Of a stretch of DNA of 64,000 nucleotides, positions 1,901 to 63,973 are shown one piece after another. The notes below the pieces were generated by a model, which ran no database searches, was not told where the DNA came from, and worked only from the letters and a program-made list of their open reading frames with translations. The stretch spans positions 62,001 through 126,000 of the forward strand of contig JBAMJV010002924.1 of the NCBI GenBank assembly GCA_037951105.1, read 5' to 3'. Source of the DNA: Echinarachnius parma (taxonomy: Eukaryota; Echinodermata; Echinoidea; Clypeasteroida; Echinarachniidae). Positions within the stretch are counted from its first letter, which is position 1; each line of letters begins with the position of its first letter. The position numbers were made by a program, and so were the translations under genes.

Positions 1901-2118
1901 TTAAGGAAATACACAGGCTGTAGTCTATAGGATATAACGACATGTGCATAAGTATGCAAAAATAGTCTTGAATGAGTTAAAATAGTTCATTTTTTGGTTG
2001 ATTCCATTGTCTGTATTTATTGTCATTGAACTTATGAATGATTTCCTGATTCTGTTTGAGAGCTATGTTTAGAAGTACATGTATTACACCTCCCTGCAAA
2101 GGCTTCATGGTTCAGAAG

Positions 2119-6548: not shown

Positions 6549-6620
6549 GCACTCTGTGCACCAACATGTAAAGCATACACTAGTAACATGTAAAGCATAT
6601 ACTAGTACATGTGAACATGT

Positions 6621-6905
6621 GAATGGGCAAACGTGCCAGGCCGCGATTGCCGTGGATGCCGGGCCAGATTTTTAAACTGTCAAAAAATTTGCCACGGCAG
6701 TCACGGTGCGGATGAGAAATCTAGCAGGTTTCTTATCAAAAATGTTGACAGTTTAAAAATCTTGCCCTGCATCCACGGCAATCGCAGCAGTGTCACGTTT
6801 GCCTATTCCGTCCCCCCGCATTGCCTCACCTCCATCCCGTATTGTCCACGGTAGCCTGAAACGGGGCTGCCGTGGCCGCCGGGGACATGGTGTAAACGCA
6901 GCATA
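6621..6905. mobile_element. remainder of the GC-rich foldback element
   Basis: The arm resumes with gaatgggcaaacgtgcc and contains two inverted blocks around a central loop: ccgtggatgccgggcc at ~6650 against its complement near 6770-6785, and tttttaaactgtca at ~6670 against tgacagtttaaaaat at ~6745. It then runs through the complement of the left arm to gtgtaaacgcagcat at 6905. Confidence 0.75.
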
Positions 6906-9070: not shown

Positions 9071-9611
9071 GTGCGTCAAAACAATTTCTTGTTATCTGGA
9101 TATAAATTACTCTGCCTGTTCAGGCAGGTGGCTTCAAATGGCATTTCTCCACAAACTGATTTTCCCAAGCCCTGGGCAAGCATGCAATTGCAAGTTGATG
9201 CATTTTTGAGTTGCTGTGAAAATATTACACATGGAATTTAGTAGGGAAAGAACCACCAACCTCCTGATTACAGACCACTAAACCACTGAGGTCTCCTGAT
9301 GAGTAGGGCTTTGGTATTAGGTTCCTGATCACGCTTTATGTAATATACCAAATGAGAAGAAAACAAACCTTCAACAAGGCTAGCTACCTTTGGTAAACCA
9401 GCTTTGCAAAGCTAAATTCATTTTGATTTAAACAAACATGACATCAATTATTTGGGTCAGGTCATCTAAGCTCAAACACATTTCCCCCATTATGAATATT
9501 TCATGGTTAGTTTCTGATATTATTCACCATCTTGTCTTGACAATAGTTGACAGTTTGATGCCCATGGTCATGTCCCCCCATCTCACAGGAATTCCTGTAG
9601 CAGTGGGATAC

Positions 9612-10071: not shown

Positions 10072-10617
10072 CTTCACCAACTATTTTGCAACCACCACCC
10101 AAGGATCTTGGTATTGACTATGCTGTGAATGTCTCTGTGACGTGTCTAGTCATTGGACACCCCCTTCTACACTACAAATTATACCCTCTATTTAAGAGAA
10201 ACAAAAAAATAACAAATATAATCAGTACAAATGGTTCCTTTCTTTTATTTTCAGCTGCACCAACTATTTTGCAACCACCACCTAAGGATCTTGGTATTGA
10301 CTATGCCGTGAATGTCTCTGTGACGTGTCTAGTCATCGGACACCCCCTTCTACACTACAAATTATACCCTCTTTTTAAAGGGAAACAAACAAAATATAAT
10401 TAGTACAAATTGTTCTTTTCCTTTTTTTTCAGCTGCACCAACCATTTTGCAACCACCGCCCAAGGATCTTGGTATTGACTATGGCATGAATGTCTCTGTG
10501 ACGTGTCAGGTCATCGGACACATCCCCTTCTACACTACAAATTATACCCTCTATTTAAGAGAAACATACAAATAACAAATATAATCAGTACAAATGGTTA
10601 TTTTCCTTTTATTTCAG
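10072..10617 (+). pseudogene. three partial copies of the Ig1 first exon (acceptor side)
   Basis: Acceptor sites followed by the sequence for (A)[15 protein letters not shown] occur at 10072, 10255 and 10433, before the complete exon at 10618 (spacing 183, 178, 185 bp). Each copy keeps the pyrimidine tract, AG and the first Cys region, then breaks off after GHP into duplicated intron sequence. None has a donor at the proper place. Copies 1 and 2 share one open frame, so accidental inclusion would not always stop translation. Confidence 0.85.
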
Positions 10618-10803
10618 CTGCACCAACCATTTTGCAACCACCGCCCAAGGATCTTGGTATTGACTATGGCATGAATGTCTCTGTGACGTGTCTGGCCATT
10701 GGACACCCGCCCCCAAGGGTGACCTGGAGGAAGGAGGGAACCAGACAGCTCTCGCTCAATCCAAGGATCACAGTGTCTGACGGTGGAAATCTCTTCATCA
10801 GGG
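10618..10803 (+). CDS. HMCN1: hemicentin Ig1, first exon
   Basis: The acceptor ttatttcag and donor ggtaagt bound a 186-bp phase 1-1 exon. It encodes the A to D strands, with Cys in VTCLAIG and Trp in VTWRKEG, ending GGNLFIRG. The second Cys is in the exon at 16882, so this domain is split by a 6-kb intron. Partial copies flank it on both sides. Confidence 0.88.
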
Positions 10804-13800
10804 GTAAGTTACAACAAAGCATGAAGGCTGCATCAAAACAACATCATTGATATTCAATAGTAGACAAATGCGATTGTATTATCTAGAGACAAGACTCCCT
10901 GCCAGGACTTGGAGAAAGGACAGAACCAGACATCTCTCGCTCAAACCAAGTGTAACTGTTCCTAATGATGGAAATCTCTTCATTAGTGGTTAGTTACAAC
11001 AACAAATAAATTATTAGGCCACAACGAAATGTTATGCGCAAAATGTGTCTGTGAAATGGATAGTAGCCAAAATATATTGACTAGAAACAAGCCACCCCTG
11101 CTAGGGTGGCTTGGATGAAAGAAGGGACAAGGTAGGTCTCACCGGGGGTAAATCACATGCACAATTCTATATTCTTCTAAACTGAAAATATGTCATTAAT
11201 ATTGGATATTATACAAGAAGAATACTATCTAGAGAAAAGGCACAACTTTGAAGCTTTCATTTGTAATTTGTCATTGATGGAGTTTGAAGAAAGCAAAGAA
11301 AGCTGATTCTATAAATGAATTGGCAATTTACATGTAAGGCTTGGAGTTTAAAGCAAATCATTATAAATGAAAACAGTGGCAGTGGTTTTCCATTTGAATA
11401 CAAGGACATTAAGTAATTTTCGCCATCATTTTGCTGAATTGCAGATGTAAAATACTTATAAATAAATAAAATGGTAGGTTGTTCACCTTTCTTGCCCTCC
11501 AAACTGCAGATGATTACTCATCAGGTATTCTGCTTTTAATTACAAGGCCACCTGGACAGAATTATGCTATTTGGTGTGACTATCCCATAAGAGGGGACTA
11601 CTAGATATGCTGCAACATACACAACCTGACAAAGGGTTAATACAATGGATATTAAGTGTAATATCATATGCCCACTGAGTGATGTGTGATAGATACATGA
11701 TAAATGAATGACATTATATGACACACTACTCATGGAGTTTCCCAAATGTTCAGCCAAAACAAAGACAACTTTTAATAGGAGGTTGTGCATTTGTTTGTGG
11801 AATAGCTTACCATTATATTTGAGAAAAGTTGAATCTGTTTGATACATTTAAGTCCATGTTAAAAACACATTTGTTCATGCAAGCCTTTTCATAAGTTTGT
11901 TTGTTTACATGTCTTGGTCTTGTTGGTTATTGTTCATTTAAGAGGAGCTCTTTATAAGCGCAGTATTTATTTATTTATTTATTTATTTATTCTCCACTCA
12001 TGGGATGGATTGCCCTTGTCAGCTACATGCTGTTTTTCAAAGGGGTCCAATAGAGTATATGTTTATATATTAGTAGCTGCGCTATGCAAATGTTCATATA
12101 AAATTTGATGAAGTAATGGGCAAAAAAATTTTTCCTACAAGTTCTATTTGGCATCTTTTCAATTTCAGATATGTATTTATTATGAAATATATATTCATAG
12201 CCCCCTTTTCTTGTTAGACAATGGATTCCTAATCCAACTTCAGTTTTGAGCTATCTTTATTGTTCATACCTTCTAATTTTGGACACATATAATGAAACAC
12301 GTATGACATACTTAACAGTTGTGATCCTGTTAACCTATCACTGTCTGATAATGTTAGTAATTTTATATTGTCAGTGACTTCTTGCATCCAACAATTACAA
12401 CCATGTGGACATTTTGTCATTGATTAGTCATTTCTCACCACAATCACTCATAACAGAATACGATTTGGAAACTTTTTCCCTCCTGCCCTCATACCTAACA
12501 ACTGCGCTTGATCGTGATATTGTTCAAACATGTGTCTTTTTAACCACAATCGTTCAAATATAACAAGCATAACCACTACTTTAATTGTCTGCTGCTGTTG
12601 ATCAGTATAATTGTACAACCTTCCTCACTCGATATACTCAATTACACTTGGGGAATTATGTCATTAATTAGGCTCTTCTAACCACAAGTTTATAGTATGT
12701 AGTACATGAATTCATTCTTATTCAAAATGATCCTCATATTCCCTTAACCCATTCCCTTTGAGTTTCTGAAATATCAACAGATTTATACATAACCCACTAG
12801 GTTCCCATAGGCAAAGGGTTAACCCATTTATGATTGGTCCTGAAACTGGGGTTTCCGTAGTTTTTTTATAACTTGTAATGATTGTTTTTTTGGAAACATG
12901 AATAAACTGAAAACTTAATCAGACAGTTGTGAACAACCACTTATAATAGAATACAATTTAGAAACTGTTCCCCTCATGCCCTCATATCTAACAATTATAT
13001 TTGATTGTACTATTATTGATATGTCTCCTTTAACCGCAATCAATCAAACAACAGTCATACGAACTGCTTTAATTGTCTGCTGCTGTTGAGCAGGATTGTA
13101 GAACCTTCCTCACTCGATACACTTAATTACACTCGGAGATTATGTCATTAATTAGGCTCTTCTAACCACAAGCCTTGGAAGATGTAAATGTACAAGTATG
13201 GTTTTAGATCTTATTTAGTGAAGGATTCCCTTACTACCTACCTTAAACCCGTTCCCTTTAAAGATTCTGAAATCCCCATTGACTTTGTACATAAACCAAC
13301 ATGTCCCTGTAGGCAAGGGGTTAACCCATCCAGGGGGGTGTTTCACAAAGATCCTAAGTTGAACTGAACTCTAAGTTGGACTTAAAAAGTATGGAAAGCC
13401 ATTAGTTTCTCTGAAAAATTGTTGTAAAAGTCCTTTTTCAGAGGCATCAAATGTTGATTCAAACCATTAATACTTTCTATTATCTAGGAGACTTCATGTT
13501 CTTGATGCAACCGTTATGAAAAGTAAAAAAATTCTTGCTTTTTTGCTTTTGAATATATTGCATTCCAAGGCTACAAATGGCTTACCATACTTTTTAAGTC
13601 CAACTTAGAGTTAAGTTCAACTTAGGATCTTTGTGAAACACCCCCCAGGACTGGTCCTGAAAAAATCCTACCTGTCAGTGGGTTAACAGAGATGAACCCT
13701 GACCCAAAAAATCAGACAACTTTGAACGGGTTTACAAAGCTGATTAGGACATTGTGTCATTAATTAGTCTCTACTAACCACAGCCAACCATTGCAGGGGT

Positions 13801-16800: not shown

Positions 16801-19800
16801 ACAGTAGGGTCTATTAATATAGTATCTGCACAACATATTGAGTGAGAATTAATTGTACTATTATTATTTTCTCTGTCACAGACCTTCAGGTAGAAGACAG
16901 TGGGACATATTTCTGTGTTGCTCAGAATGAACATGGCTCGACGGAAAACTCTGCACAGATCAGGATCACAAATCTAAGTGAGTCAAAATCCTCCTCAGGA
17001 ATTGTGTCAAGTTAAATGTACAATATAAATTCTGACTATCGCAAGTGTTGACAAGGATTTCTGGAAAGTACCTTCATTAAAGTGATCCATTATTAAACAT
17101 TTTTTTTCCAAAAGAGATGTTTGAGTCATCAATCAATACCAATATCATTCATTGTATTCTTCTGACTAATGTGATTGATATGAGAGTTGTTTATTGATGC
17201 TTTACATTCAATCATAAATATCCCCATAATTAGGGAGATATTTGTAAAATCAAAACAAATTTCATTCTTCTGTTACCATAAGCCAAACAACAAGGTACAT
17301 GTACATATATGTACATGTTCCAGGAAAATGTGAAAGCTCCAAGTAGGTTTGGTTGAATTTGGAATTGGTTTGAAGTTAATGGAACACTTTAAGAGCCCTT
17401 GTAAGAGCACCGTTCTACATATAATTTGGAGGTTAGAAGTTGTAATCCAGGTAAATTCCAATTTTCTTAAATGCTTGTTTTTTATTCAAAATCTGCTACA
17501 TCAACAGCCATTTGGCACGTATTCAACAAACTTGGCCCCCAAATGCGAATAACCACTGTGATTGAGTCATCATGTTCAATGCCAACTAATTGTCAACACA
17601 AGATAACAAATTCTGGCAAATGGTAAAGGAAATCTGTGTGTAAATTATGATCAGAAAAACATACCCTTTTCAATTTAATTTTATACCATTCAGCTTCTTA
17701 AAATACAATAAAATGGCCATCTCTATTATCATCGGTGATAGTGATGAGAGGTAATCAATTTAAATTAAAATGATACTATGCACCAGAAATGTATACAGAA
17801 ATTGTGTTTTGATGAACCCAATATAAAGACCGATCCAATTAAATATATCTATATGAAATGACTACAAATTTTGGTTGTATCGGCTTAGGAGAAAAATCCC
17901 AATGAAATACAAAGTGATATTGAGGTTCGACACTCGCACTGGCCCGCTGGCCCGGGGCCAGTGAAATTGCACTTTGGGCCAGCAAAAATGTATAAAAGTC
18001 AAGCAGATTTTAAACCCGACATTGACAAATTAGAAAATCTTGTTTTCTTCCATATCATGCTTCATTTATAATCACTGGTTTTATCTGGTAAGAGTGATAT
18101 TTTGAATAGTAACTAACCCTAGTAAAAAGTTTATTCATGAAATTCAATTTTCGGGCCAGTAAATTTTTCTTTCGGGCCACCAGAAAAGGGGAAGAAATTA
18201 TTTTCCTGGCCCTACCGGGCCACTGACAAAAAATGTAAGTGTGGAGCCCTGATTTAGGACTGCTGTTCATAATTTGTTTGAAAACGTATTTTACTTACGC
18301 AGTAATTATAGTGAAGGTGATTGGTCGGCACAGTGTGTCTTGCAGCAGACAGAAATTATTATCTTTCAAAATTTGTATCATCTCTCTTCCAGTCCAGCCA
18401 CAGATCAGCGCGACCGACCAAGAGAGAGTGACCGTTGTCGGCAGTGATTTTGCCGTGCGTTGCACCGTTGTCGCTGGCAACCCGCCACCCTCCGTCACCT
18501 GGTATCATGGAACAAACAGACTGTACCCTGAGTTCAGTCCTCGACTGGAGTTGCTACCAGACGGGAGTCTGGGGATCAGAGATGTGGGGTTGTCAGATGC
18601 TGGCAACTATACGTGTGTGGTAGAGAACGTTGTAGGGAACGATACCAGGCTGACACATCTTAGAGTGCATGGTAAGTGGTATTTTGTTGTATGCAATTTG
18701 TTGTTGTTGTCATCAAGTGAGAGATGAAGGTTTAGAGAAACATGCAACTCCCGAGTCTGTGGTATATAATGATACCCAGCTGGAACATCTCAGAGTGCAT
18801 GGTATGTGGTGCTTTATAGTTTTGTATTGTCATTGATATATTGATATAATTTAGAAATATCAATTTTGTTTCGAAGAATGTAATGGTCAGCATTGTTGTT
18901 AGCAACTTTACCTATCTCATGGAGGATATTAGAGGCAACAAGACGTTAACATATCATAATGTTTATACAGTAGTCATATTATGTGTTTTGTTGATAACTC
19001 ATTTTGTAGGAAACATGGCAGATTGTCTATGTATTTGTAAAATTTTAGTACGATTTTGCAAAGCATTAGTTGTAAGAAAAATAATTTTGTATTTAAAATA
19101 TCATTTGTCATGGATGGGCACTGTTAAAGGGATAGTTGAGTTTTGGTATAGAGGGCGCTACACAAAATATTTTGTTTGTGAGATAATGAAAAACTGAGTG
19201 TCAAATTTGAAAGAGCATACAATTTTAATGACAGAACAAACTTCATTTGATCAAAATCGGTTCAGAAATGGCTGAAATATCCATAAACATTAAAACCATT
19301 TGTAATAATTGTGGGGCAATGAATGATTACAAGCAATATTTAACAGGCTTTTTACTTAGTCATTTGTAATTTTGTTTTCTTTTCGAGCATGGTGGAGTTA
19401 TAAATGTTAGTTTGTAATGTAATGGTGCAGGTTGTGGTTACTAAAATTCAGTTTGACCAAAACTGTACTCTCTTGACCAAAACTCAACTATCCCTTTAAA
19501 ATAGCACACAAATCAGTCACATGCATTTTCTGTGTAGTACACATGTGACAATATTTGATAATGTTCTTCTATTATACAGAATCAGCCAGTATCTCTGCCA
19601 CAGAAACCAGCTACACGGTTGTCCAGCGGGAATCCATCACCCTGTTCTGCCCTGCCGAGGGCTACCCACCACCAACCATCGAATGGATCAAGAACGGGCA
19701 GCTGATTCCAAACATCGGTCTTTATCAGAGCGCCCTCACTCTGAGCTACGTGGGGGAGGAGGATGCGGGGACGTACACATGTCGCGTGCGGAACGTTGCC

Positions 19801-22800
19801 GGCTTCTCCGAGATTGAGATCACTCTCTTTGTCATGGGTGAGATGCAGTAGAAGCATTAATCTTTGAAATAGCTTGTTTAGATAATCAAGGTGCCTTCAG
19901 CAATGAAATTAATATCTTAATGAATCAGAGTATACCATGCACATTAATATCATACAGATTGCATTGGAAAGTTACTTATTTTGTTGGGAAATGTATTCAA
20001 TATCTTACGATTGTGATTGTTCGCATTAAAACAAAATAATCACAATTTATGATGTACTCGTTATATTTTGTAGTATACATGTACATACTTGATATAGAAC
20101 AAAAAAGACAAATCTTCTAAGAGCTTTAATAATTCAGTGAAATATTTAGTCAACAAAATTTGTCGCTGTGTTACTGAATGTTTAATCCCTCATTATTTCC
20201 CTAGTCCCACCTGTGCATGTTGGTGTCGACACAGTTGGTGCAATCAGCGTTACGCAGGGAGATAGCATTACACTGCCATGCGACGTCAGTGGAAATCCCC
20301 TTCCCACCATCTCATGGTACAAGGATGGTCTACCCCTCGTATTACACATAATAAACATCAGAGTTGTTTAATGAGTTTTAACATCTCCTTTCTCTTTCTA
20401 TTCCCTAGTCCCACCTGTGCATGTTGGTGTCGATACTGTTGGTGCAATCAGCGTTACACAGGGTGATAGCATAACACTGCCATGCGACGTCAGAGGAAAT
20501 CCCCTTCCCACCATCTCATGGTACAAGGATGGCCAACCCCTCCCCGTGACCGGACGGAACTTCTACATCAACACAGAGGGCGGGCTTGTTATTCAGCAGA
20601 TGACGCTGAGTGACGAGGCCCAGTACACCTGCATCGCATCAAATATCGCTGGCAACAACTCCTTGGATGTCAGGATAACCATACTTGGTAAGCAACAAAT
20701 AAAATGATGATGGCTTCAAATTGTCTCGTATTCTTCAACAACTATGTATTTCAATGGAAATTGAATTATAAATAAATGTGAAAGACTGCTGAAAACTGCT
20801 TATCCGCTATATAAAGGCAAGGGTTATCAAATGAGTCAAATTGAGTTATCTATAACTTTGTTTTCATATAAAGCAATCAATAATTTCAGATACAAACTGC
20901 AGTGATTTTTCATTATGTACGACACACTCACTCTAAAACATACCTCGTTACATTGAATAAATTGATAAGTTAAATTACTGATTCATGATTGCAGTGCCCT
21001 CTACAATCGACCCGGGCAACACTGAATACACAGTCGTAGCTGGCAAATCAGTTTTGCTGTCCTGCGAAGCATCAAGTATCCCACCCCCTGAAGTAGCCGG
21101 GCAGAAGGATGGGTATTGCTGAGAGCAACATAATTGTCTACCTATTGTACGATAGCCCTCTCCAAAAAGATAATTAACTATGATCTTCTCTTATTACAGT
21201 GCCTCCAACAATCGACCCGGGCAACACTGAATACACAGTCGTAGCTGGCAAATCAGTTTTGCTGTCCTGCGAAGCATCTGGCATCCCAGCCCCTGAGGTT
21301 GCGTGGCAGAAGGATGGTGTCCTGATCGCAGGAAGCAGCGAAAACGTCCGGCTGTTGGGCGAGGGCTCCCTTCAGATCGACATAACAGGAGAGGAGCACA
21401 CAGGGACGTACACCTGTGTGGTGACCAACGAGGCTGGGTCTGAGAGCAGGATTATTTTGCTGGAAGTTCACAGTAAGTTACTCCATTTTAGACATATGTT
21501 TTATGAAATAAGGAAACACTTTTGAGGGTTGCAAATTGGCCATGCACTCTGGCAATTTTATGGAAAATTCAAAAATGTTTTATGGAAAATTCAAAAATGT
21601 TTTATGCACAAAGTTTCACATTTTCTAAATTTTCCCCAAATTTATGTCTCCCCTTGTGTTTGAGCTCGACAAAGTTATGTTTTGTAGAATATATTTCTAT
21701 GCAACATCTGCATATAATGAATTTGGCAGATTGAAAAAGTGTGTTGCAATGAATAATATTGAAAATTTAAATGGATCTTACATTTGTTTTCAGTCCCTCC
21801 ATTGATACTGGACCGACAGACCCAATACACAGTGATAGAGGGGCGAGCTGTGACCCTCCACTGCCCGGCCACCGGTACCCCGCCCCCAACCATCTCCTGG
21901 TCAAAGAACAGTCAGTCCATCCCCCTCAATGACCCTCACTATGATGTTGATGAGGTCGCAGGAACGCTGACCATCTTTGGGGTTCTGCCGACGGACTATG
22001 GTACATACGAGTGTTATGTCAGCAATGCAGGGGGATCAGTGTCAAAGGAGATCTCTGTAGCTGTGTATGGTAAGAAATGTTTAGTTCAACCTACTCTAAA
22101 AACCACTAACCACTTGCACATGTCAACAAAGTTACTAGATCCTTTTATTCAGGAGCACCCCTTTGTATGTTTCCCCTTTTGCCGTTTTCCTGTTAATCAG
22201 AGACCACTGTATTAAGTTTGTCTACTACAAATGCTAACCACTTTGATAACACCTGTCCAGATTTGGATGTAGTTAAGGTGTCATTTGAGTAAGCAAATGA
22301 GCTCACTAAAGTGAGAAATTCTAGAGTTATAAGTGAGTTTTGTTGAGTTTGACAACGTAAATTGCCTTATTTATTGTAATGGATGTGAATAAAAGGCCCT
22401 TGACAGGCCCCTAAAAAAAAGAAGCATTTCTGATGTTTCTTAAGAATATTGTCTCTACCCTATCGGCTACACATGTCAAAGGGGCAAAATAAAACTAAGC
22501 AGAGACTAACATAAATATATATTCTAGTAAATACATTTTAGTTTCATCTCCTCTCCCCAGTGCCTCCGAGGCTGACTGATGAGCAGCAGCTCCTGTCCCA
22601 CAGCGTGCAGGTTGGGGGCAGCATATCCCTCCCCTGCGAGGTCAGTGGTACACCCCCTCCCGTCGTCACCTGGTACAAGGCCGGCAGGGCACTGTCCGTC
22701 AGTAACTCCATGGTGATTCTGCCGGAGTCCCTTGAGATATATCGGGCAAGGCCGATCGACGGCGGCATCTATCAGTGCGTGGCATCCAATGTCGCAGGCA

Positions 22801-25800
22801 ACGTCACCAAGAACTTCAGACTCCTTGTTATGAGTAAGTTAACATTTTAAATATTTGAATCTTTGTGTATGAAATTGTAGATGTTAAGTGGAATGGAGCA
22901 TTTATTCTGATCAATACTTTACATTTTGTTGAAAGCAGCCATTATACATGGATGTGACAAAACCCGGCATTTTAAGTTCACACAATGTGTGTAAAAGACC
23001 TTTGATTGTAAAATTTAAACAATCATATCTTCGCCAATTATTTACCAATTAGTTAGAACAAAGCATCAAATGAAAGCTTGTGATGAGGCCTTTATAATGG
23101 TATGAAAATCTTCATTTAGATTTTTTATCGACAAGTGCCGGGTTTTGCTATAGCCGGTCACATATTGTCAGAATTTTTGCTGAATTAAGTTCTGCACACC
23201 ATCATGTACATCAGCACCTTCTCTATTTAATGCCCGCTTTATACAAATGTTGTATAACAACATGCAGTTTCATAGAGAGTAGCCCAAGTATTTTGGCACC
23301 TTTCCTGAATGGATTAACATTATGTTTTTGGTGCGCTGTTGTCTTTTTCCAGTCCCTCCCAGCATCCAGCGAGGCCCTGTTACCAGGATAACGGAGGCGG
23401 GTAATCAGATAGAGTTGGAGTGCCGAGCGGATGGCATCCCTCTACCAGAGATTGTGTGGTACAAGAATGACGAGCCCATAGATGTCTTCAACAATCCAAG
23501 GATGCGGCAGAGCGCTCTGGGCACGCTTCAGATCGTGAACGTGGATCAGGACGACTCGGGAGAGTATGCCTGCTTTGCCTCCAACGATGCGGGAAAGGCC
23601 TCTAAATATGTCACCCTGACTGTCAATGGTAAATAAACACTCAGAATATTGTGCTTTTGTTTTATCAATCAATATATTTTGTACAGTTTTATAAACACAC
23701 TTTCACATTTGAAAAACAGTATGTCTTTATGATATGTATGATATTGTGCCTATGTTGACAGCATTCCTTTGAGAACTCTTGTTGCAAGTTATGATGTATT
23801 CTTTGTGAAATTTAAAACTTTGTGTGTTTTTATCACTTTGCCTTTAAGGAAAAAAAGACCCAGTGGCACTGTAATACACTGATAAGAACCTGCTTGTAAC
23901 CCTGTAGAGATGTAGGCATATTTCAGTGTCCATTTCAGAAGTCACATGTTTTTACCACAAGCAACATAAGGAATCATAGATTCCCAAGAGTCGCATGGTA
24001 CAATAATGGTGTGTCCATGTACCCAAATGATACATTTTTGTCGGAAATATTAATATACTACCACAAAGATATGACAACCATTTTTCCTCCTCCTTCTTCT
24101 CTTCCAGTGCAACCTATTTTGTTGGACAGTCCTGATACCTACACAGCCCTCATGAGGAACCCAGTCACACAGCAATATCTGATAATAGCCCACTTTCTTT
24201 CATGCATTGCTGTTTCAATATTCAGATATTTGTCACATTTCCCGTGAAGCATTAACTAACTGTAACCTTCATTTTCTCCATATTCTTTTTGCAGTGCAAC
24301 CTATCCTGTTGGACAGCCCTGATACATACACAGCCCTGATGAGGAACCCAGTCACACTGCAGTGTCTGTCTACAGGTTTCCCGCCTCCAAGAGTCACATG
24401 GTTCAAGAACGGTGTGCCCTTGAACCCACGTGATGTCAGGTATGGCTTATGTTTACCCAGCAATTAAATGTACACCTAATTTGTAAACAAAATTTGTATA
24501 AATTGGATCAATTTGTCAATCCAATTCTAGTTAATGAGATGTATGTAATTGTCAATATCTCTTTTTGTTATTTTATCCAGGTATGATGTGAAGCCATCTA
24601 ACTCACTCCTGATACACAATGTATTTGCATGATTTTTAAAGGTATAAATGATATTGTATTCTCAATGAAATCTAGTAATTGTCTTATACTTATTGAAATA
24701 TACCTAATTTTAACTTTCTGTTTGATTTTTCCAGGTACTATGTGAACCCATCTAACTCGCTCCTGATTGCTTCTACCATGCGGGAGGATACAGGCAGGTA
24801 CACGTGCAATGTCACCAACGATGCAGGCTACTCACTCAAGCACATTGATCTCACAGTCTATGGTAAGATAATTATATGCATCATTGATTCAGTTGAATTA
24901 ATGCTTATACATTCTAAATATACCCAGACCAAGTATTTGGGGGACTAGTTCTGAATGTGTTAACTAAATTAGATTTCCTTTTTTGTAACACATATGTCTA
25001 TTGATTCAAAGTCATCTGAACCTCATTTGTAGAATGATGGGTGATAAAGGGCGGATACGTACTCTGTATGCAATGCTGTTATGGGACATACCCTTGTCAT
25101 AAGGGAGAGACTTAGAAGGGCAATAAATGTAGCAATGTGTGTGTTACTCTTATATTAACCTTCTATTACATATGTGACCGGCTATATCAAAACCCTGCTC
25201 TTGTCGGTAAGTCTTGTTTTGAAGACGAAATGGGCATTTTAAGTTCACATAATGTGTGTAAAAGACTTATGATTGTAAAATTGAAACAATTATATCTTCG
25301 CCAATTATTGACCAATTTGTTAGAACAAAGCATGAAATGACAGCCTGTGGTGAGGCCTTTCTAATGGTATGACAATCTACATTTTGATTTTTTACCGACA
25401 AGTGCAGGGTTTTGCTATAGCCGGTCACATATATGTATGATAACTCCACTGATTCACAGTCATCTGAACCTTATTGGTAGAATGATGGGAGATAACGGGC
25501 GGATACATACACTGTATGCTGTTGTATTATGGGACATACCCTTGTCATATGGGAGGGACTTAGATGGGCAATAAATGTAACACTGTGTTTGTTACTCATA
25601 ATCTTTCTATTATATATAGATGTTAAATTGACAATGTATTATGTATGCAATGCTGTTGTATTATGGGACATACCCTTCTCATAAGGGAGGGACTTAGAAG
25701 GGCAATAAATGTAACACTGTTTGTTACTCATATATGAACTTTCTATTAGGTATAGATGTTAAATTAACAATGTATTATGTATGCAATGATGTTGTATTAT

Positions 25801-49800: not shown

Positions 49801-52800
49801 GATTGTTTTATACCGAAAATAATGATTTTTCTGAGCAACCTTCAATTCGGTTTCGGCCTGAAACTCGGTTTATCATCGCTGGCTGTTCATGATCGATCGT
49901 TTGTGCATTGATTGAGCGGCACCCAACCGCTGTGTGCGAGCTAGCTGAGCCGGAGCGGAAAGCGCTGTGATTGGTCAGACTGACCTGAATAGAGTTGTAC
50001 TGGGTATGTACGTTGTGTTCATTTCCTACTGTATAATACCGCATTGAATCGCGCCTTGTTATGTAAATTCTGTAGCTAGCTTTTCCTCGCATTATCAAAG
50101 CGCATCGTGTGCAGCCTACCGCATCCTACTGTATTGAATCGCGCTGTGCGGCTTACCGGTACCGGTACCTACCATATTGAATGACATGGTACTGCGTGCA
50201 TGCAAAATACGCCTCCCCGGTGCGAAGTTCATTGTGTATAGTTCAATGTTGCGGTAACGATCGGGCAGGATGAATGAGCAGGTGGGTCGATATCGCCCGA
50301 CCAGCGAGGACTGAAGTTACCGCTCTATTGTACCATTCATTGTGATCGAGGGGGTCATGCCAGCTAGCCCGCCGGGTTAACTTGCATGCAATTGTACGAA
50401 ACTGGAGCGGCTTTGTACAAATTTTACTGTATGTTAACAGTAAACTGCGCATGCGTTATATTGTTTGTTGATAACGCTATTTTCACGATCGATTGTGAAA
50501 ACGAACGGTCAAACCGAGAATTTGTTCAACCGCTCGCTCGCTCTGTGAGGATGCTTTTCTGAATGGATGCGAAACTTTAGAAGCGATTTTCTCTGTTGTT
50601 TGACAAATAGCTGAGCTCTGGTCCGCGTTATTAAATTGCGTTTTTCTTTCCTTCATGACAATTATATGTAGCAAGTTATATATCATTTTAAAGCTGAAAT
50701 CCGAGAGAATTCAAAACACTAAAAATCTCAATTTTGATATTGCCGATGAATTACCCGAAGTGACAGAGGGGGACACAATTGTGTGATTGTACAGATGTTA
50801 TTGACTCCCTTTAGAAATTAAATTAAAGTTCACATTCTTATATTATTCTTTGTTCGGTAAAGGTTGGTTGTTTATTTTGATGTACACCATGGTTTGTTGT
50901 ATTTGTTGCTGCACTTTTGTTTACACTAACAAAATGTTAGCACTAGTGATTTACATCTGGTGAATTTGATCATGGAAGCACTGTACACTTTCTTTTTCTT
51001 ATAGTTTGATATTTAATGGAGTGGTACACTGTACATTATTTAACACATAGATGTATGGACAGATTTTGGTTTGAGAGTTCATTAAAATTGTCTCATTTAA
51101 TAGCACAAGTTCATAACTATGGTCAGATTACGAATGATAAGGGGTACACATTTTCATCAATTTGTTATTTGTTGTTGTTTGTATGGAAAACAATAAGTTT
51201 ATTTTGTTTGTTTAGAGTATGATGTTGTTATGCCCAAGCTGAGTTTGGTAGTGTCTTTTGTGTGATAAGTTTATCCATTGCTTGCATGTTTCATGATGGC
51301 TAAATATTTTCCATATTTTTGTTTTTATGTTCTGCTAAATTTCTGTATGAAGTGTCCTTTTGATTATTGTTTCCAAAATCGCGTTTTCGTTTATTTGACA
51401 TATCTGCTTCAATTTCTGTTTTACAATTTTGCTTTATTTCCACTTAAAGTTTATGATTCATTTTGTCAAAAGAATCTGTTTGATTTAGATTTTGCTCTTT
51501 TTTAAATATTTTATTTTTTACATTTCTGCTCATCTCAATTCATTATTTGCTCCATGTTTTTGTTTGGCCACCCCATATGATTTCTTTGTTCATTCTTGCA
51601 TGTGCATGCCCCTGTCACACGGTGGTGTAGTGCATGGTGCCTGGTCAGACTGGACCGACTGGAGTCAGTGCAGTAAGACCTGCGGGCATGGCATACAGAA
51701 GCGTGTGCGAAACTGCGACAGCCCGTCGCCGGCCAATAACGGTCTGCAGTGCAACGGGTCCAAGATGGAGATGAAGATTTGCCAGATGGATAACTGCCCC
51801 AGTAAGTCTGGTACCTCTATCAGTGCAGTCCCTATACTCCCAGGTCCTGCTATAGCCCAATACTCTGGTCCTATACGGGCATGTCAGATGGATAACTGTC
51901 CCAGTAAGTCTGGTACCTCTATCAGTGCAGTCCCTATACTCCCAGGTCCTAAGATATAGCCCAATACTCTGGTCCTATACGGGCATGTCATCCTGAAACG
52001 TGTGCTTTACTGCGATGGTCCACTGCAGCCAATTAAGGTCTGCCGTGTAACAGGTTGAAGACGGATGAAGATTCGTCCGATGGATAAACTGCCCCAGTAA
52101 GTCTGGGCACTTTAACATGAAGACTTACGATTAACCGTACAATCAATTGATCGATTGTATACGTTGTCAGGTGATTGTCTGATCAAACGATATGCCAGAT
52201 TAATTATTTTTACAATAAATTAAGTAATCGTACATTCAATCAATTGATTGCACGGCTTCATCATAAATAATTACGTTATGGTTCCCTGGTCTCCAGTGGT
52301 AAAATAATCCCTTGGCGCACACATAGGCCCCGTTGCAGAAAGAGTTACAATTTCTGGTCTTCTCTACATAGCATAACCCTTTTGTTCCTTTTCCATTAGA
52401 TTTGTTTCACTTTGCATTTTATGATTTGTATTTTGTTGCCTATTTGCATGCTTTTTATTTATATATTTTTTGGCATGACATGGAACGAAATAGACGAATG
52501 ATTTGCAGAAAACTAGCAAAATGTGTATGAGATTTTATTATGTTTTTATGAATCAGTCATTTTGCACATAATCAAACTTCCTTTGATCAGTTGCTGTGAA
52601 AAGTAAGCATATTTTAAAGAGTTGGAAACACAAGTTATTACATTCAATGTAGATGTATTGCATATTATTGCCAATTAATTGATGAATATGAGAGGGTTTT
52701 GTTATATCACAGCTCTTTATAACGCCGTTCCACAGGATTACCTCGTTTTGTTTGAGAGCTTTGAAAATTACTGCCCATATTGTAAGTATGTGGCATAATG

Positions 52801-53814
52801 TTTCCAATTTGAATCGCTTTTAGTGATTAATCTTATAATGTGATATATCTCCTCCTCAGTCCATGGCCGTTGGGGTGAGTGGCAGCCGTGGGAGGAGTGT
52901 TCGGTGACGTGCGGTTACGGCGTGAGGGTCAGGAGACGTTACTGCGACAGTCCAAGAGCGCAGTACGGTGGCCGTGATTGTCAGGGGCTACCCATACAAC
53001 ATGACGAGTGCTATAGTGGGGATTGCCCAGGTATGTAAGATACATGTTCATCCAAATGAGTACACAGACAGATAAACATACATACAGACAGACAGACAGA
53101 CATGCATACAGATGGATAGAGAGACAGACCGGCTGACATAAAGACAGACAGACAAGTATACATGTACATGTACATATATAAACATACAGAGAGACAGACA
53201 AACAAACATACATACAGAGAGACATGGAGTCAGATTAGATAAAGATTAAGCTAATACAGGTAGGCAGACTTAATGTGTAGAGATAGATAGAGATACAAGA
53301 TTTTAAAAAGTTTGTCTGTAGGTATGCATGTTCATACAATAACCAATCTTTCTTCTTGTGTATTCTTCATCCAACTTCAGTTGATGGCAACTGGGGGGCG
53401 TGGTCAGCATGGTTGCCGTGCGACAGGTCATGTGGAACAGGGAACACCATCAGGGAGAGACTGTGTAACAACCCTGCACCCAGGAACAATGGACGGGACT
53501 GTGTCGGGTTGTCTAGGGAACCAAAGAGGTGCAATCTACAACCCTGCCCAGGTAGGAACAAGAGAGATCATGATGATTATGATGCTGGTGGTGGTGATGA
53601 TGATGTTCATTATCATGTAGATGATTGTAGTGTAAACAAAGATCATGATGGTTGTGATGGTGATGGTGTCTATAATGATGATTTGTATCATGTAGTTAAT
53701 GGGGATTATGCGAGGAGGAGGATGATAGAGACGATGATGAGGACGATGATGATGAGGATGATGAGGATGAGGATGAGGACGATGATGATGATGATGAGGA
53801 TGATGAGGATGATG

Positions 53815-53852
<38 letters not shown>

Positions 53853-56800
53853 GATGATAATGATTTTGATGATGATAATGATAATGATAATGATGATGAT
53901 GATGACAATGAAGATGATGACAATGATGATAATGATGATGATAATGATGACGATGATGACAATGAAGATGATGACAATGATGATTATGAGGAAGATGAGG
54001 AAGACTGTTATGATGGTGTTGATGAGGAGGATGCACAGAAGGAGCAGGTGGATCATAAGATGAAGATAGTGATGATAATGATGATGATGATACAGGTTAT
54101 ATTGTTGATGATGATGATGATTTTTGTATATTGCATCCAACTTTCTCTCTTATGATATAGTTCATGGCAAGTTTGGATCCTGGAGTAGCTGGTCCACCTG
54201 TACAGTATCATGTGGAGTAGGCCAGAAGGCCAGGACCAGGACTTGCTCTGAGCCTCTGCATGGAGGTAGAATGTGTGAGGGCAAGACCACAGAGATAGGT
54301 CGCTGTAACATTGATGCTTGCCCAGGTATGTTAGTACAAGAAGTCATTCATTCAATTCTATTACATTTCAGCATTGTACTGCTAAAATCCTCTTATATAC
54401 TCTAAAATTATCTGTGTAATAAAGTTAGAGTCAATCAGGAGCCAACATTTTTTATCCTAGTAGGAGCTTGATCAGAGACTAGCTAAAATTGTAAGCCTCT
54501 AAAGAAGCTTCTGCTGGAATCTTAAACTACGGCCCTTGGACTCACCCACTTTTCATTACTAAGCATTACTTGTTATCTGGCCTATGAATAAATTCAGGAA
54601 ACAAAGTATTCAGAACTGGTCTAAACAAAATGCTCCAGAATGGGGTATATTATGGACAATTCATGCTTTACCATTTCCAATAATCTTCAATTGGTCAACA
54701 ATATGTAGTGGAACAACAAATTATGAGCGTATATTCATTCTGCTAGACTTTTTGATTTTGCAGTTTAATATTCCCTTTCAATTTTATTTTCATACCAATG
54801 TGAAGCGCTTAGAGATTATAATCAAATGTTTACGGTTCGCTTCTTCGTTTGTTTGTTCATATCTCCTCTAGATTAATGTCTATAAATGATGTCATCCCAT
54901 TGTTGGATTATATAAGATGCAATATAAGTTGAAATTATTGTGATTATTGATTTTTTTCCCTCCATAGTAACTGGTCATATTGGGGGTGTTTAGAGAGAGA
55001 ATTCAGCAGTTTGCAATGGGGGCGCCAGACAGAGATTAGGATCCTGTACCAGGCCAGCCCCCTCCCCCACTGATAGACCATGTGTTGTACTCACACGTTC
55101 TGTCCATCCTACCATACAAAATCTTAAAGGACAATGAAACTATGGCTTTCGGCTACTATTATCATTTAGAGGGTGAACAGACATTTAATTTGATACATGA
55201 CTTGGCAATTTTTGCCTACTGGATCCCATGAAATCCTTCTGTTAACATACCCAAATTTTACTAATTGTTACGGCGACAAAAGATGATGGGAGCGGCCATG
55301 TTCGTGTAACTACCGACATGCTTCGCAAATTATGACGTCTGTGCGTATGGCCGAACAAAAAGATTTGCAGACCTATCAAAGCGTCTACAAGTATTCAAAC
55401 AATGGTTTGGTTGGGTGAATGCAGGAATCGATCTCAGTAGTCCGCACAGACCTAATAATGGTGGCCTCCAGCGTTTGCGAGAATAGTGGTGTAGCCGATA
55501 GTGTAATGTTATGCGAAATAAACAAGCATATTACGATGTATAAAGTAGGATAAAATCTATTCTAGAGTTGCATTGGCCTTTAAACGGTATTAGAGTGCAA
55601 TACCTCACAGGTCTCTCCATTATGAAAAGGATCTATCTGCCTCATTTAATTTTTTGCTTACCTATCTATTATGAATATATGTTTATGTTCTCATGAGCGA
55701 TATCCATATGTAATGTACTATATAAATCAACATTATTATTACTTTTTCTTTTATCAGTCCACGGTAACTGGTCAGAGTGGGGTGTTTGGAGTGACTGTTC
55801 AGCAATGTGCAACGGTGGGACCAGGCAGAGATTCAGGTCGTGTACCAAACCAGCCCCCTCCCCCACCGGTAGACCATGCGTGGGAGAGAGCAGAGATGTG
55901 CAGACTTGTAACCAACAACCATGTAGAGGTATTGAATACAGTTGTCTTGAAATATTTTTATCACAAAAGCTGAAACCCTTCATTGTTTCTGAAACTCTAA
56001 ATGATAATAACGAATAATAGATCGACTACTTCTTTAGCTTTAAACTTTAACTAACATTTTTCCAAAATCGATATTTGAAACTTCATTTGTGTACCAATAT
56101 CATTGTAAGGTGTTTCTTAGAAAAAGAACTCTGTTAACCAAGTGGGAAAAAAAGGTGAAAAAGTGAACTTTGATATCAAATTTTATTAGCTAGGGATACA
56201 TTTGGAAAATCAAAATGTGGAGTGAGTGTTGACAGATGTGCGGTGAAAGCCAGTGAAGAAAGAGCAGGGATGTTAACAGTCCTAGCACATAGTTATTATC
56301 TTTCATCATTATCAGAAGAGTTAGAAGAATATCTTGATATTTCATGTGCTAACAAGTCAGCCATTTTGTTTTTGTTTCAGTGGATGGTAAATGGAGTCGA
56401 TGGTCAGCATGGAGTGAGTGTTCTCAGACCTGTGGTGAGAGCCAGCGAAGAAAGACCAGGGACTGTAACAACCCAGCCCCGGCCCACGGAGGTCGGCCGT
56501 GTGTAGGACAGTCAGAACTCATACAGCCTTGCCATGTACCACCATGTATAGGTGAGCTATGAATGATGGACCAGATTTTAATTTGATACACATGAATGAT
56601 GTTGTAGTGAAACATGAATGAATTTGTTTTTAATTGTGGAACTCGTGATTGGTAACTTGAGTTCATTCTTCAAAAGGGGAAATTAAGTTATGTGTTCACA
56701 TATGTCTGAGAATAGGTGCCTTGCGCCGATTTTTGTTCCACCATTTAAATGGCATGGAAGCACTTGGCAAAATAATGTAGATACAAACTTATATATTTAA

Positions 56801-59800
56801 TACATTAGAGCCCTTACAAATAGACAATGATTAAATGATGCCTGGGTTTGCCCCACCTATTTACAACCTGCCTATACAATGAGTACTGTGTTGGCCAGGA
56901 ACATAGCAATAAATGTATATATTTTATTCTCCAATATTAATTCACATTGTCACAGGGCGGTAGTGGGTGTAGTATCAGGGTTATTCCCAGCCTAGCAACA
57001 GCCGATGCACTATACAGTGGTTATTTGTTGGCCAGGAACACATATCCATGATTTTTTTCCTCCAATATTATTGCAGTTGGTCCCAGAACTGCTGTGGGCA
57101 TAGTGACAGGAATCATCAATGGAGAGACCTTGAGGGATGGACGGCTGTATGCAAACATCAGTGTGGACAATGCAGGCTATACACAGGTCAACGCAAACCT
57201 GGAAAATATACCAGACAACATTGGTAAGTAAAGTTGATCTCATTTTATATCACATTTTAATTGCAAGGTTTGTTATTGACCATAGGAAAACATAGTTTTC
57301 AGGTATTTTTTTAGCAAAGAAATATGATCTGGCTGTTTTATTTCTCAAAGCTGGACAGGTCAGTGCAGGTCAGTGGAAGCCTAAAAATGTACATGAATGT
57401 CTCTGAATAGAAGTTTTCTGATTGATATTCAGTAGATGATGATTTTGTGTGAATATTAAGTTGAACAGAGTGTACATAATGTAAGCATTCAACTATTTTA
57501 CCTTTTAACTGTTTACTAAATTAATTTGATTATCAATTATTCAACAAAATAGATTAACCGTACATACTTCCTTATTGCACAAGAGACAAATAACTATGCT
57601 TCAACATGTTCATGGAACCTTTCCTTTTTTAAATTTCAGGTAATGTGATGCGGATGTTGATCTCTCTGATCTCCCCCATCTATTGGACCAGTGCCTACGA
57701 GAGAGAGAACACTGCCAATGGCTTCTCAGTCACACAGGGCAACTTTGAGAGGACAACACAGGTCCAGTTCTGGTCAGGTGAGTGATCATGTGACATAGCA
57801 TGTGATGTATCATGTGATTTATTGTGTGATACATTATAAACCGTGGGTCAGATTATAATTGGTCAAATCTATTGAAATCGATAGCTCCGTTGTTTCAGAC
57901 TCTCGTGGCAAAGTTGCTCTGATTTACAATCATCTTTCTCTATTACGTATCATAAATTAGTAATTTACTTTCATTCACAATCACCTGTTTCATTATGTAA
58001 CATGCATTATTATTTTAGATAGTCGACTTAAAGGGGAATTAACCCTTATCCTTTTGATCATAGCATAACTACTATCATTGCTAGTCACTTATTTCCTCAT
58101 GAATATTCCAGATTACAAAAATAATCAATATTTTATGGACCACTGTCGTCTGCTTTCAATGCCAACAGGAGGCGGCCATTTCTTCAACTTCTCGCGGTGA
58201 AATGACATGTCAGGCGGAGAACACAATAGCGGGTTACGATAATGCTATTGTGTTCTCCGCCTGCCACGTCATTTCACCGCGAGTAGTTGAAGAAATGGCT
58301 GCCTCCTATGGGCATTGAAAGCAGATGACAGTGGTCCATAAAATATTGATTATTTTTGTAATCGGGAATATTCATGAGGAAATAAGTGACTAGCAATGAT
58401 AGTAGTTATGCTATGATCACATCCAGTAAGTCAAAAGGATAAGGGTTAATTCCCCTTTAACAGGAAAGGCCTTGCAAAATCATTGTATTTGTCTAATGTT
58501 GATGCTGAATGATGATAAATCATTGAAATGTATCCCATATCTCCCTGTGCATTAGAGACGGCTATTGGTCCAGAGTGAAATACCACACGAGTTGCTCCAT
58601 TATGACAAGGATCGATTCTGAAAACATTTCTTGCATAGGGTACTACTATTACTAATATTCTGTAACGTTCTCATGACTTATATAGGTGAGCAGCTCACTA
58701 TGGGCATGCGTTCCATGGGGGTCGATGAGAATGGCATGCTTCGGCTAACGATCTTGCTGTCTGGCGACACGCCCGATGAGATCTACCCGGAGGACCAGAT
58801 CGTGACGTCTGGTTACCGGGAGACCTACATCCAGACGGGTCCGGGAGAGATCTTCGGCAAGTCATCTCGCTTCATCACCATCAACGGGGCGCGTCTGCCG
58901 TTCGCCTGGAATCACACCATCACGTATGATGACGCTAGCAACAAGATGCCATTCCTTGTGCAGTCGCTGAACACAGAGGGCGCTGTGGTGGCCTATAATC
59001 CCCAGGATGGATCACTGACCTACACCATCAGGGTGTTCTTCACCAGAGGTAGGAGGGTTGTTATCCTTCAAATCCTTTCCTTTACTGTTATATTATTGCC
59101 CATTTGTGTTTCTTTTCTTAATTGTATCATTTCTGTATGTACTGTACTTTCTTTTGTATCGTTTTATTATTTGTGTTGTTTAGTGTTATTATTTGTTGTT
59201 TCGTGTTGGTATATATTCTGTTGTCTCTATGTAGTTACTGTCATTTGCCCTGACGAAGATCCTGCTAGGATTGAAAGCTAGGCTGTATACGACTCTCGTG
59301 TTATTATTCATTAAGTGGAAGACAAATGGCCTCATTTTCTTTAAAAAAAATGAATGTTTGATATTGTTCTGCTTTCATTGCATTTTTAAATTAAAAAATA
59401 TATATGTTCAATATTGTATTGTTTTGCAGGAGAGCCCAGGAACCAATGTCCCCCAGGATTTGATCTGGACCCAACAGGGCCATACTGCAGGGGTAAGTTA
59501 GATTGAATTCAACCTGTTACCTTCAAGATTCTGAAATCAGCATAGACATTGTACATAACCAACCAAGTTCCTGCAGGCAAGGGATTTATTTTAGAGCATA
59601 TTGCTCATCAAATTTCCTCTTTATTATCATAATTTCATTTTGATTCACTCATATTCTCACATTTTTAAAGCAGTCTTTCCAGAAAAAAATTGGTCTTATA
59701 ACACTTTGATTTTGATAATGGTAAGAGCCATTCATAGTTATATGCATTAACCATTAAAGCACATTTTATTACCCTGTTCAGGACTGGACCCGAATTTACT

Positions 59801-62800
59801 AAGGCAAGAGTCTTGGGAGATTATATTTAAGACCAATTTCAAATAGTCTTGAACCGGTTTATGATTGGGTATTTTGGGCACCAAAATCTGTTCATCATTT
59901 TTGTCATTTATTTATGTATATGAATGTCTCTATCTTTGGAAATAGGCACTGTTTCCATGTATTTAAATATGCAACTGTATATAAAATACCCATCTCCTGG
60001 TTTGTCTTCACAGATCAGAATGAGTGTCTGCAGAGGGACACCTGTTCCCACTTCTGTCAGAACTACTACGGAGGCTATGTGTGCACCTGCCCTCAGGGTT
60101 TCAGACTCAACAGGTACAACGATCACACCTGTGAAGGTAAGCCCTCACCCCTCTGTCTTCCCTTTTCAACACCCCCTTTTCCCATCCCCAATGACCCGTC
60201 AGACCCTCCATGTGATTAAAAACCAATCACTCCCTTGTGTCTTCTTTCTATGGAGACCTCATTTGTGTCCCTGCACTCAGGGATTCAGACTCAACAGGTA
60301 CAACGATCACACCTGTGAAGGTAAGCCCTCACATCCCTTCCCCTCTCCTCCGCTTCCCCCAGGCCTGCCGGACACCTTAGCCCATCACAATTTACTCATT
60401 AACCGCCTTCATGTGACAGAAGTCCAATCGCCCACTGATGACGGACGTCTACAGAGGATAAGGGCCTGCCCCCAATGTCAATAGGTTTATTGAACACACT
60501 TGTGAAATAAACCTTTCGTTCTCTTTCAATCGCACCCATTCCCTTGAAGTACTGTACCAATACCTTTTTCTAAGACACTTTTGCTCTCTACAAGATAACC
60601 ATTTTGTAAATCAAGCATTTTGAAGCAATAATCAGAATTATCCTAGTATAACAATGTGTTAGTCTAGGAATTATTACATATAATTGTGTATGTTTAAGGG
60701 CAAATTACAATCAACTCCATTGTTTTTAAATTCATAATATAAAGCTTATTGTACGATATCACTTAACACTTTTTTTGTAACATGCAATTATAAAACCGTA
60801 GATGCTTTGGGCTGACTTAACATAGTTTAACTCAGGTATTGTATGCTATATTTTGTTTTGTTTGAACAACAGATATTAATGAGTGTCTGTTCAACAATGG
60901 AGGCTGCCCCTCTGACCAGGAGTGCCAGAACCAGGAGGGATCCAAGCAGTGTGTGTCGCTGTGTGAAGCAGGGATGAGACGCATCCCTGGAACAGCACAG
61001 TGTGGAGGTGAGTGGGGGATGGGTTGCTATAGCAACTAGACGTATTATTATCAACAAGGATTACGATGGAGGATAGAGGATGAAATTTAGATGGACAAAT
61101 TAAAGAGAGTGGGATTTATTGAGGGATCCGTGCAGTGTCTTTCACTGTGTGCAGCCGGAATGAGATGTATCCAAGGAACAGCACAGTGTGGAGGTGAGTG
61201 GTGGATGGGTTGCTATAACAACGTAATTATTGATGAGAATAATGATACGTACTGGTGATAGGTTGGGGATAGGAAGATTAGAGGATTGAAAAATGGGTGG
61301 AGGGATCCATGCAGTGTGTATCACTGTGTGCAGCGGGATGAGATGTATCCAAGGAACAGCACAGTGTGGAGGTGAGTGCTGGATGGGTTGCTATAGCAAC
61401 ATACTTATTGATGAGAATAATGATACGTACTGGTGATAGGTTGGGGATAGGAAGATTAGAGGATTGAAAAATGGGTGGAGGGATCCATGCAGTGTGTATC
61501 ACTTTGTGCAGCCGGAATGAGATGTATCCAAGGAACAGCACAGTGTGGAGGTGAGTGGGGGGATGGGTTGCTATAGCAACATAATTATTAGATGATAAGA
61601 TACGTACTGGTGATGGGCTGTAGATAGGAAGATGAAAGGATAGAAGGATATGGAGAGAGATCCATGCAGTGTGTGTTACTTTGTGCAGCGGGGAAGAGAC
61701 GCATCCCTGACACTGCACAATGGTGAGGTGAGAGGGGGATGGTTTGCTAAAGCAACCAAAGTATTTTTGTGCTCGAATGCTGATGTGAGAGAGTTGAATG
61801 GTAGGATAAATTGACGGAATCCTTCCAGTGGGTAAAATTGATTGGTTGGTGAGTTGTCAAAATAACAAATGTAAATAATGAATATAGGTGATTATACTGT
61901 TTGGAGATTTGGTCACTATATCAAAGCGAAAAATATCAACTTTGAAATTATGTAAATGATGATGATCAATGTCATATTAACAGGGATGATGATAAATACA
62001 GTGACAGCCATGAAAGTGATCATAATGTGTATTTTTTGGTAATCATATTTCATGTCACAAGACATCGCACAAATTAATATGATTTGTATCTTTGATCTGC
62101 TTCAGATATCAATGAGTGCCAAGAAACACCCAACATCTGTTCCCACTACTGCAGCAACACACCAGGCAGCTACCAGTGCTCTTGTAGGGAGGGATTCAGG
62201 TTGATAGGCACCAGCAGGTGTATTGGTGAGTTTCTTAGATAGACTTTATGAAGATAACTTTGACAATGAAGATATTGGTGATGGTATCAATGATGATGAC
62301 TATGATGATGATGATGATGAGCTTGACAATGACAGCTACCTTGATGTTGTTGACGATGATGATGATGATGATGAGGATGATGACGACGACGATGAGGATG
62401 ATGATGATGATGACCTTAACAATGACAACTACCATGATGAAGTTGGCATTTTCCATGACAACTAGGAGAAGAATAAGAATGATTATTATTATACATGTAA
62501 CATGTATGAAGTACTTTTTATCATGAATTATTCTGATTTGTCATATTTCGCCATAAATTCCAATTTCCTTATGGTCTAATTTATTTCTGTACATCCTCTT
62601 GAAAAACGAAAGTTTATTTCTTTATTTTTCTCTGCTCTTTTCATTAATTCAATTTATTTATGTTCAGTTTCCTTAAAGTTTGAATTGACAAGTTTACGTC
62701 CATTCCTCCACCCTTGCTAGATGTAAATGAATGTGAGGAGCGCAGCCCCTGCCTCGCCAACCAGCAGTGTATCAATGAGGAGGGACGCTACCGCTGCATC

Positions 62801-63973: not shown

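Follow-up and report, generated by a model that had tools for sequence, protein, structure and literature searches.

The stretch analysed here, a window of 64,000 nucleotides from Echinarachnius parma (contig JBAMJV010002924.1, positions 62,001 to 126,000, forward strand), holds an intact part of a hemicentin-like gene, and many exons of this gene are accompanied in the adjoining introns by partial copies of themselves. The exon models were derived from open frames, a local profile hidden Markov model (HMM) of the Ig domain and splice signals. Every one of the 52 models is bounded by AG and GT, phases are in agreement throughout, and the joined reading frame comes to 3,550 codons with 0 stops. 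Pfam Ig, TSP_1, G2F or EGF_CA matched six of the seven exons tested, the remaining one, from the G2F region, having no Pfam match. With its six TSP1 exons, the hemicentin is chordate-like. The median intron is 586 bp, and GC content is 54% in the exons and 39.6% in the window.

10618 to 63973, plus strand: hemicentin-like gene part with 52 exons (37 Ig, 6 TSP1, 3 in the G2F region and 6 EGF-type), from open frames, the local Ig HMM and AG/GT

Partial exon copies and their direction

An exon-by-exon search, restricted to 1,500 bp or less from each exon, to sequence outside real exons and to E<0.01, found a local partial copy for 25 of the 52 exons, almost the number given in the preliminary description of this DNA (about 26 of 52). 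All 48 matches lie on the plus strand and 0 on the minus strand. Reversed exon sequences gave 1 match in total, and random intron segments of equal lengths gave a match in 4–16 of 52 cases over 20 draws, a count that takes in copy-to-copy matches inside arrays, so that exons are enriched approximately twofold. In a self-BLAST of the window, forward-strand offsets peak at 180–199 bp, which with 13 pairs is the fullest of the 20-bp bins below 3 kb. The overall observation of partial exon copies, made beforehand from the letters alone, is confirmed. Most of the offsets counted by hand at that stage were also recovered, although not every one was matched to an array (e.g., 182/176, 177 and one 183). 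The copies are as follows, all on the plus strand.

10072 to 10521: three upstream copies of exon 1 (10618-10803), bases 1-91, steps 183, 178 and 185
10906 to 10986: downstream copy of exon 1, bases 104-184, offset 185
18768 to 18801: downstream copy of exon 3, last 34 bases, offset 130
20205 to 20338: upstream copy of exon 5 (20409-20687), bases 1-134, 94%, offset 204
20995 to 21112: upstream copy of exon 6 (21200-21472), bases 1-118, offset 205
24108 to 24181: upstream copy of exon 10 (24295-24439), bases 1-74, offset 187
24586 to 24613: upstream copy of exon 11 (24735-24862), bases 6-33, offset 154
26740 to 26865: downstream copy of exon 12 (26409-26681), bases 140-273, offset 184-192
30518 to 30791: two upstream copies of exon 17 (30870-31145), 5' part to base 114-118, steps 171 and 191
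33749 to 34077: two upstream copies of exon 19 (34114-34389), 5' part, steps 205 and 192
34634 to 34950: two upstream copies of exon 20 (35027-35311), bases 1-121, steps 196-197
36478 to 36596: upstream copy of exon 22 (36693-36961), bases 1-119, offset 215
37092 to 37211: downstream copy of exon 22, bases 156-269, offset 244-250
38036 to 38185: downstream copy of exon 23 (37683-37974), bases 143-291, offset 211
39030 to 39119: downstream copy of exon 24 (38603-38884), bases 193-282, offset 235
39890 to 39984: downstream copy of exon 25 (39528-39815), bases 173-277, offset about 179-190
43838 to 44462: three downstream copies of exon 31 (43547-43743), 3' part, steps 171, 158 and 389
46289 to 46381: upstream copy of exon 34 (46480-46611), bases 1-93, offset 191
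47494 to 47747: two downstream copies of exon 35 (47198-47385), bases 105-188, steps 192 and 170
51882 to 52096: two downstream copies of exon 38 (51631-51801, TSP1), 3' end, offset 102 (95%), then about 193
54961 to 55085: upstream copy of exon 42 (55758-55928), bases 1-124, offset 797, an outlier
56218 to 56278: upstream copy of exon 43 (56381-56551), bases 30-90, offset 192, match stopping short of the splice site
60261 to 60320: downstream copy of exon 48 (60014-60136, EGF), bases 64-123, offset 184
61121 to 61722: four downstream copies of exon 49 (60873-61007, EGF), bases about 62-135, steps 177-186
62950 to 63363: three downstream copies of exon 51 (62721-62849, EGF), 3' part, steps 168-174

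For statistics, 24 arrays were used, with one value per array entered by hand. This set does not include the array of exon 42 (offset 797), the second of the two copies of exon 38, the weak matches found for exons 18 and 26, or the pieces at 9930, 23984, 26915, 36339, 38339, 40058, 40090 and 44396. The direction of the copies is uniform within it, as all 11 upstream arrays repeat the 5' part of the exon and all 13 downstream arrays the 3' part. The matches reach or nearly reach the splice site in 23 of the 24, the exception being exon 43, where bases 30-90 only are matched. No duplication lying wholly inside an exon was seen among the self-BLAST pairs and in the exon-by-exon search of the window. 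The pair at 51780-51990, at 95%, forms a clean tandem with two units, each made up of an exon end and intron; copy-to-exon divergence overall ranges from 4 to 28%, and most duplication junctions look too old for short microhomology to be read from them.

The copies are probably germline tandem duplications of short blocks, mostly of about 190 bp, each lying across one splice site, and tandem duplication across splice sites is well supported as such. Duplication of an intron tail together with the 5' part of the exon would leave a spare part upstream, and duplication of the 3' part together with the intron head would leave one downstream; after either event a full exon would be left over and the gene would still work. 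A duplication wholly inside an exon would, on the other hand, break the gene. The upstream-5' and downstream-3' asymmetry would therefore arise because the surviving blocks are those that leave one whole exon. Some first duplications may then have been re-duplicated in register, giving arrays of 3–5 units.

Exon shuffling had previously been dismissed as the cause, and this is supported. If the copies were instead the remains of whole-exon duplicates, with tandem exon duplication followed by loss of one half, their coding phase would be accounted for, but upstream copies should then retain 5' and 3' halves equally, which the 11/11 and 13/13 counts contradict, making this origin extremely unlikely. 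False duplications do arise in highly polymorphic genomes, and an artefact of assembly or haplotype merging has this in its favor. False haplotype copies, however, would carry whole exons and both flanks, whereas one exon part in a fixed direction on a single strand is found here; together with the 4–28% divergence and the stops described below, this renders an artefact very improbable.

Preferred unit length and exon-side break

The unit length has a median of 189 bp across the 24 arrays and falls within 165–215 bp in 19 of them. Its standard deviation (SD) is 29.9 bp, compared with 43.6 bp when exon and intron parts are randomly re-paired (p 0.0016; p 0.0001 with the median absolute deviation, MAD), and omitting the three shortest exon parts gives p 5e-5. 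In the upstream arrays only, the SD is 15.6 against 39.7 bp, with a correlation of -0.90 between exon part and intron part. Unit length is therefore supported as a constrained quantity. The near-constant spacing proposed initially is broken by offsets of 797 bp (54961/55758) and 102 bp (51801/51903), and about 190 bp is a mode of unit length rather than a law. The likeness of the step to one nucleosome repeat, pointed out at the same time, stands: the unit is close in size to one typical Okazaki fragment or nucleosome repeat.

The suggestion that unit borders ignore exon borders is not supported for the exon side, as the exon-side break falls at 0.38–0.62 of the exon in 19 of the 24 arrays (p at most 5e-5). 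Under the null used here, exon parts are distributed evenly between a minimum of 20 bp and a maximum set by the exon length or by the unit length, reduced by 45 bp for upstream arrays and by 10 bp for downstream ones; it allows for detection floors and unit length, and the floors are the authors' choice. With floors of 45–60 bp, the count is 19 of 21. The exon part also scales with exon length (rho 0.68, p 0.0012), being 33–93 bases in six exons of 123–145 bases, and 114–156 bases in ten of the twelve exons of 269–292 bases; in the 24-array set, exon 43 was entered as 90, though the match covers 30-90, and exon 11 as 33, though the match covers 6-33. Both a preferred unit length and a mid-exon break are thus shown statistically. 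Exon and intron parts average 94 and 93 respectively, but a rule that places the splice site centrally in the unit is not claimed, as it may follow from the length floors.

Other elements of the window were noted as well. Among non-exonic repeats of any length, a step near 190–200 bp is found in the following array only, whose step of approximately 200 bp had been read correctly before (then placed at 1940-2680).

1924 to 2670, minus strand: separate array, step 199-200 (self-BLAST offset 199, Tandem Repeats Finder period 200), minus-strand open frames with shared peptides

The two minus-strand frames scanned in this array belong to no Pfam family, and the array may be a comparable structure in a neighboring gene. 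Four introns of the hemicentin-like gene contain GAT/ATG trinucleotide arrays (53721-54033, 62290-62413, 29392-29565 and 27458-27690). Two copies resembling transfer RNA (tRNA)-Ala(AGC) also lie inside the gene, at 40233-40309 (minus) and 44147-44222 (plus); they are oppositely oriented, 88% alike across 113 bp, and look like a tRNA-derived short interspersed element (SINE). Upstream of the first exon found, a tandem array at 8096-9080 has steps of about 222 and 423 bp. A long open frame of 1,140 codons at 3252-6671 (minus) is that of a non-LTR (long terminal repeat) retrotransposon, with Pfam endonuclease/exonuclease and reverse transcriptase matches and a 2A-like ...NPGP motif. Palindromes that are 75–90% self-complementary at 58028-58460, 37422-37632, 27856-28000 and 6621-6808 are perhaps foldback elements or of the miniature inverted-repeat transposable element (MITE) type.

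Codon signature and splice signals of the copies

Divergence was measured on 38 copies of 23 exons, each against its own exon. The copies differ from their exons at 106, 101 and 263 sites in codon positions 1, 2 and 3 respectively (about 1,176 sites each), and their pooled ratio of non-synonymous to synonymous divergence (dN/dS) is 0.29 (exon-cluster bootstrap 0.24–0.36), or 0.35 with one copy per exon. Simulated copies that were dead from birth beside a constrained exon had means of 0.585–0.643, with 0.474 in the lowest single run. As the observed ratio lies below these, many copies were not dead from birth, but evolved like coding DNA for part of their history. Composition is ruled out as the source of the codon bias, since the mutability expected from the window's non-coding repeats is flat (0.125, 0.122 and 0.126 by codon position). 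Gene conversion alone was also rejected as the reason for the low dN/dS, on the argument that it does not lower the ratio. The likeliest reading of the codon signature is that the copies descended from other functional alleles, or exchanged sequence with them, before they died, in what would be a highly polymorphic species.

The codon-position bias and the kept splice signals would also be expected if the copies were in use, as alternative half-exons or as functional decoy splice sites under selection. Each copy, however, brings just one exon splice site, 16 of the 38 contain a stop in the exon frame (indels unmended), and a repeated half domain is hard to accommodate in the protein. Tandem repeats of intron/exon boundaries are already named 'mirages' in amphioxus, and in the available excerpts of those reports they leave normal splicing undisturbed (PMC3087553, PMC3902484). 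Use of the copies is, on balance, very unlikely.

When the ten outermost upstream copies are taken as a group, their acceptor tracts exceed intronic AGs in strength (p 2e-5) and do not fall below real tracts (p 0.15), and downstream copies retain donor-side intron likeness (0.56 vs. 0.27, p 4e-6). The real-strength acceptor tracts and the donor-side likeness rule out, as the main cause, a process in which exon pieces were inserted by templating at random places in the introns. Between inner spacers, 11 of 13 pairs score 35–120, compared with cross means of 22–24, with controls that are few and non-independent and rank p values of 0.09–0.14.

Several observations weigh against tandem duplication in blocks of one preferred size. 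The coding constraint of the copies is not expected of plain dead duplicates. The introns flanking the outermost copies are often less alike than simulated for a plain tandem duplication of that age (summed scores 106 vs. 371±58 and 114 vs. 315±52), in a comparison of 7+7 chosen pairs that omits 9 of 23, some of which retain intron likeness; over all outermost pairs, the 60-bp flanks are alike at p<0.05 in 2 of the 10 upstream pairs and in 5 of the 13 downstream ones. The weak flank likeness and the strong acceptor tracts would suit two long-functional alleles, or intron turnover faster than simulated. Three weak matches outside the 24-array set (23984-24031, 32856-32878 and 40124-40172) violate the rule of 5' parts upstream and 3' parts downstream. 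In the downstream arrays only, the SD of unit length does not differ significantly from the null (38.4 vs. 45.4, p 0.15; MAD p 0.008). The steps of the window's other non-exonic repeats vary (136, 222/423 and 493), and a general 190-bp process is therefore not demonstrated. Finally, the published amphioxus mirage units measure 10–72, 60, 108, 150–160 and 157 bp, as far as the available excerpts go, against mostly around 190 bp here (PMC3087553, PMC3902484).

Part of this could be met by unequal exchange between haplotypes, in which two already diverged alleles of a highly polymorphic species were joined with a shift in register, or array-free haplotypes kept refreshing the outermost copy. Such exchange, which can be combined with tandem duplication, is a real possibility, if a doubtful one. 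It would fit the gap in dN/dS between observed and simulated copies, the copy-private changes of 28, 22 and 46 by codon position despite flat mutability, and the scarcity of indels in the copies (22 events in 3,529 bp, compared with 77 gap events in 3,135 non-coding repeat columns). It would also fit outermost upstream acceptor tracts that are strong yet resemble the real tract no more than cross pairs do (likeness 0.47 vs. 0.40, p 0.08). Polymorphism of this kind has precedent, as B. floridae is given as 6–7% polymorphic with many indels in the portion of the report available (PMC2632668). The constrained share required, however, a bit over half of the dS of 0.33 by hand calculation, exceeds ordinary allelic divergence, and two of the ten outermost upstream copies have a weak tract, while one lacks an AG where it should lie. 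Exchange predicts the strongest constraint in outermost copies, and the outcome is mixed, dN/dS being 0.21 in array-outermost copies, 0.34 in inner ones (Fisher p 0.087) and 0.41 in single copies, which are also outermost.

Possible origin of the duplications and comparison with known systems

For the tandem duplications themselves, the preferred mechanism, put forward tentatively and as less likely than not, is that length and break are set by lagging-strand replication or by chromatin, the block corresponding to about one Okazaki fragment or nucleosome repeat; a replication origin is at this stage a testable guess. Nucleosomes centered on exons are known. A more specific and more speculative version is that each duplication would copy a single unit of lagging-strand replication that runs from close to the dyad of an exon-centered nucleosome as far as the next dyad, or about 190 bp. 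In yeast, Okazaki termini cluster around nucleosome dyads, and upstream of dyads on brief ligase depletion, according to the accessible part of one study (PMC8496332). In rad27 yeast, the excerpted results place rearrangement breaks at nucleosome midpoints, with blocks of about 148–160 bp (PMC13334657), and the available portion of a preprint describes a rise in alternative duplications on joint inhibition of FEN1 and XPF in a human cell line (PMC12633238).

If this were true, germline errors in Okazaki fragments would leave half-exons with one splice site next to exons, of fixed size and place, and these would be raw material for new introns and exons. Should chromatin or replication set the unit, exon nucleosomes would skew the positions at which new splice sites and introns arise.

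A comparable product is known from plants, where the block between two paired nicks is duplicated in tandem. The tandem block is alike here, with no evidence for nicks. Gao and Lynch reportedly described intron creation through internal gene duplication, and that model shares with the present case a duplication of AG/GT boundaries from which new introns and exons could be made; the copies here differ in lying within existing introns, and a new intron is not shown. Tandem exon duplication leading to mutually exclusive exons does not match either, as the copies are not whole exons with both splice sites.

The rearrangements attributed to Okazaki-fragment maturation are, in the accessible text, small inverted triplications in mutant (rad27) yeast and in cancer, with tandem duplications raised there also (PMC13334657), whereas those described here are direct tandem duplications in an animal germline.

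The closest match in structure is with the amphioxus mirages, described in the available excerpts as minisatellite-like duplications of intron/exon boundaries, at both 5' and 3' borders, with copy number differing between haplotypes, in the genes Adh3, the globins BflGb6 and BflGb9, TnC and PGBD5 (PMC3087553, PMC3902484). A unit across one exon/intron boundary (here in 24 arrays), the involvement of both boundaries (11 upstream and 13 downstream), extra splice signals and a normal exon that is kept (0 stops) are shared, and the arrays of the hemicentin-like gene fit mirage anatomy, an assignment made by structure only. The earlier view of such repeats as little-described is therefore half right, since boundary-spanning tandem repeats already have a name. 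What differs is that 25 of 52 exons are affected in this one gene; the mid-exon breaks and the codon signature are also features that the excerpts of the mirage reports do not describe, and both the regularity of the block size and the break near mid-exon look new against the open-licence literature searched. The origin of splice-site-bearing tandem repeats was called unclear in the accessible part of the amphioxus globin paper (PMC3087553), and a unit near 190 bp together with a mid-exon break supplies two measurable rules by which that origin becomes testable.
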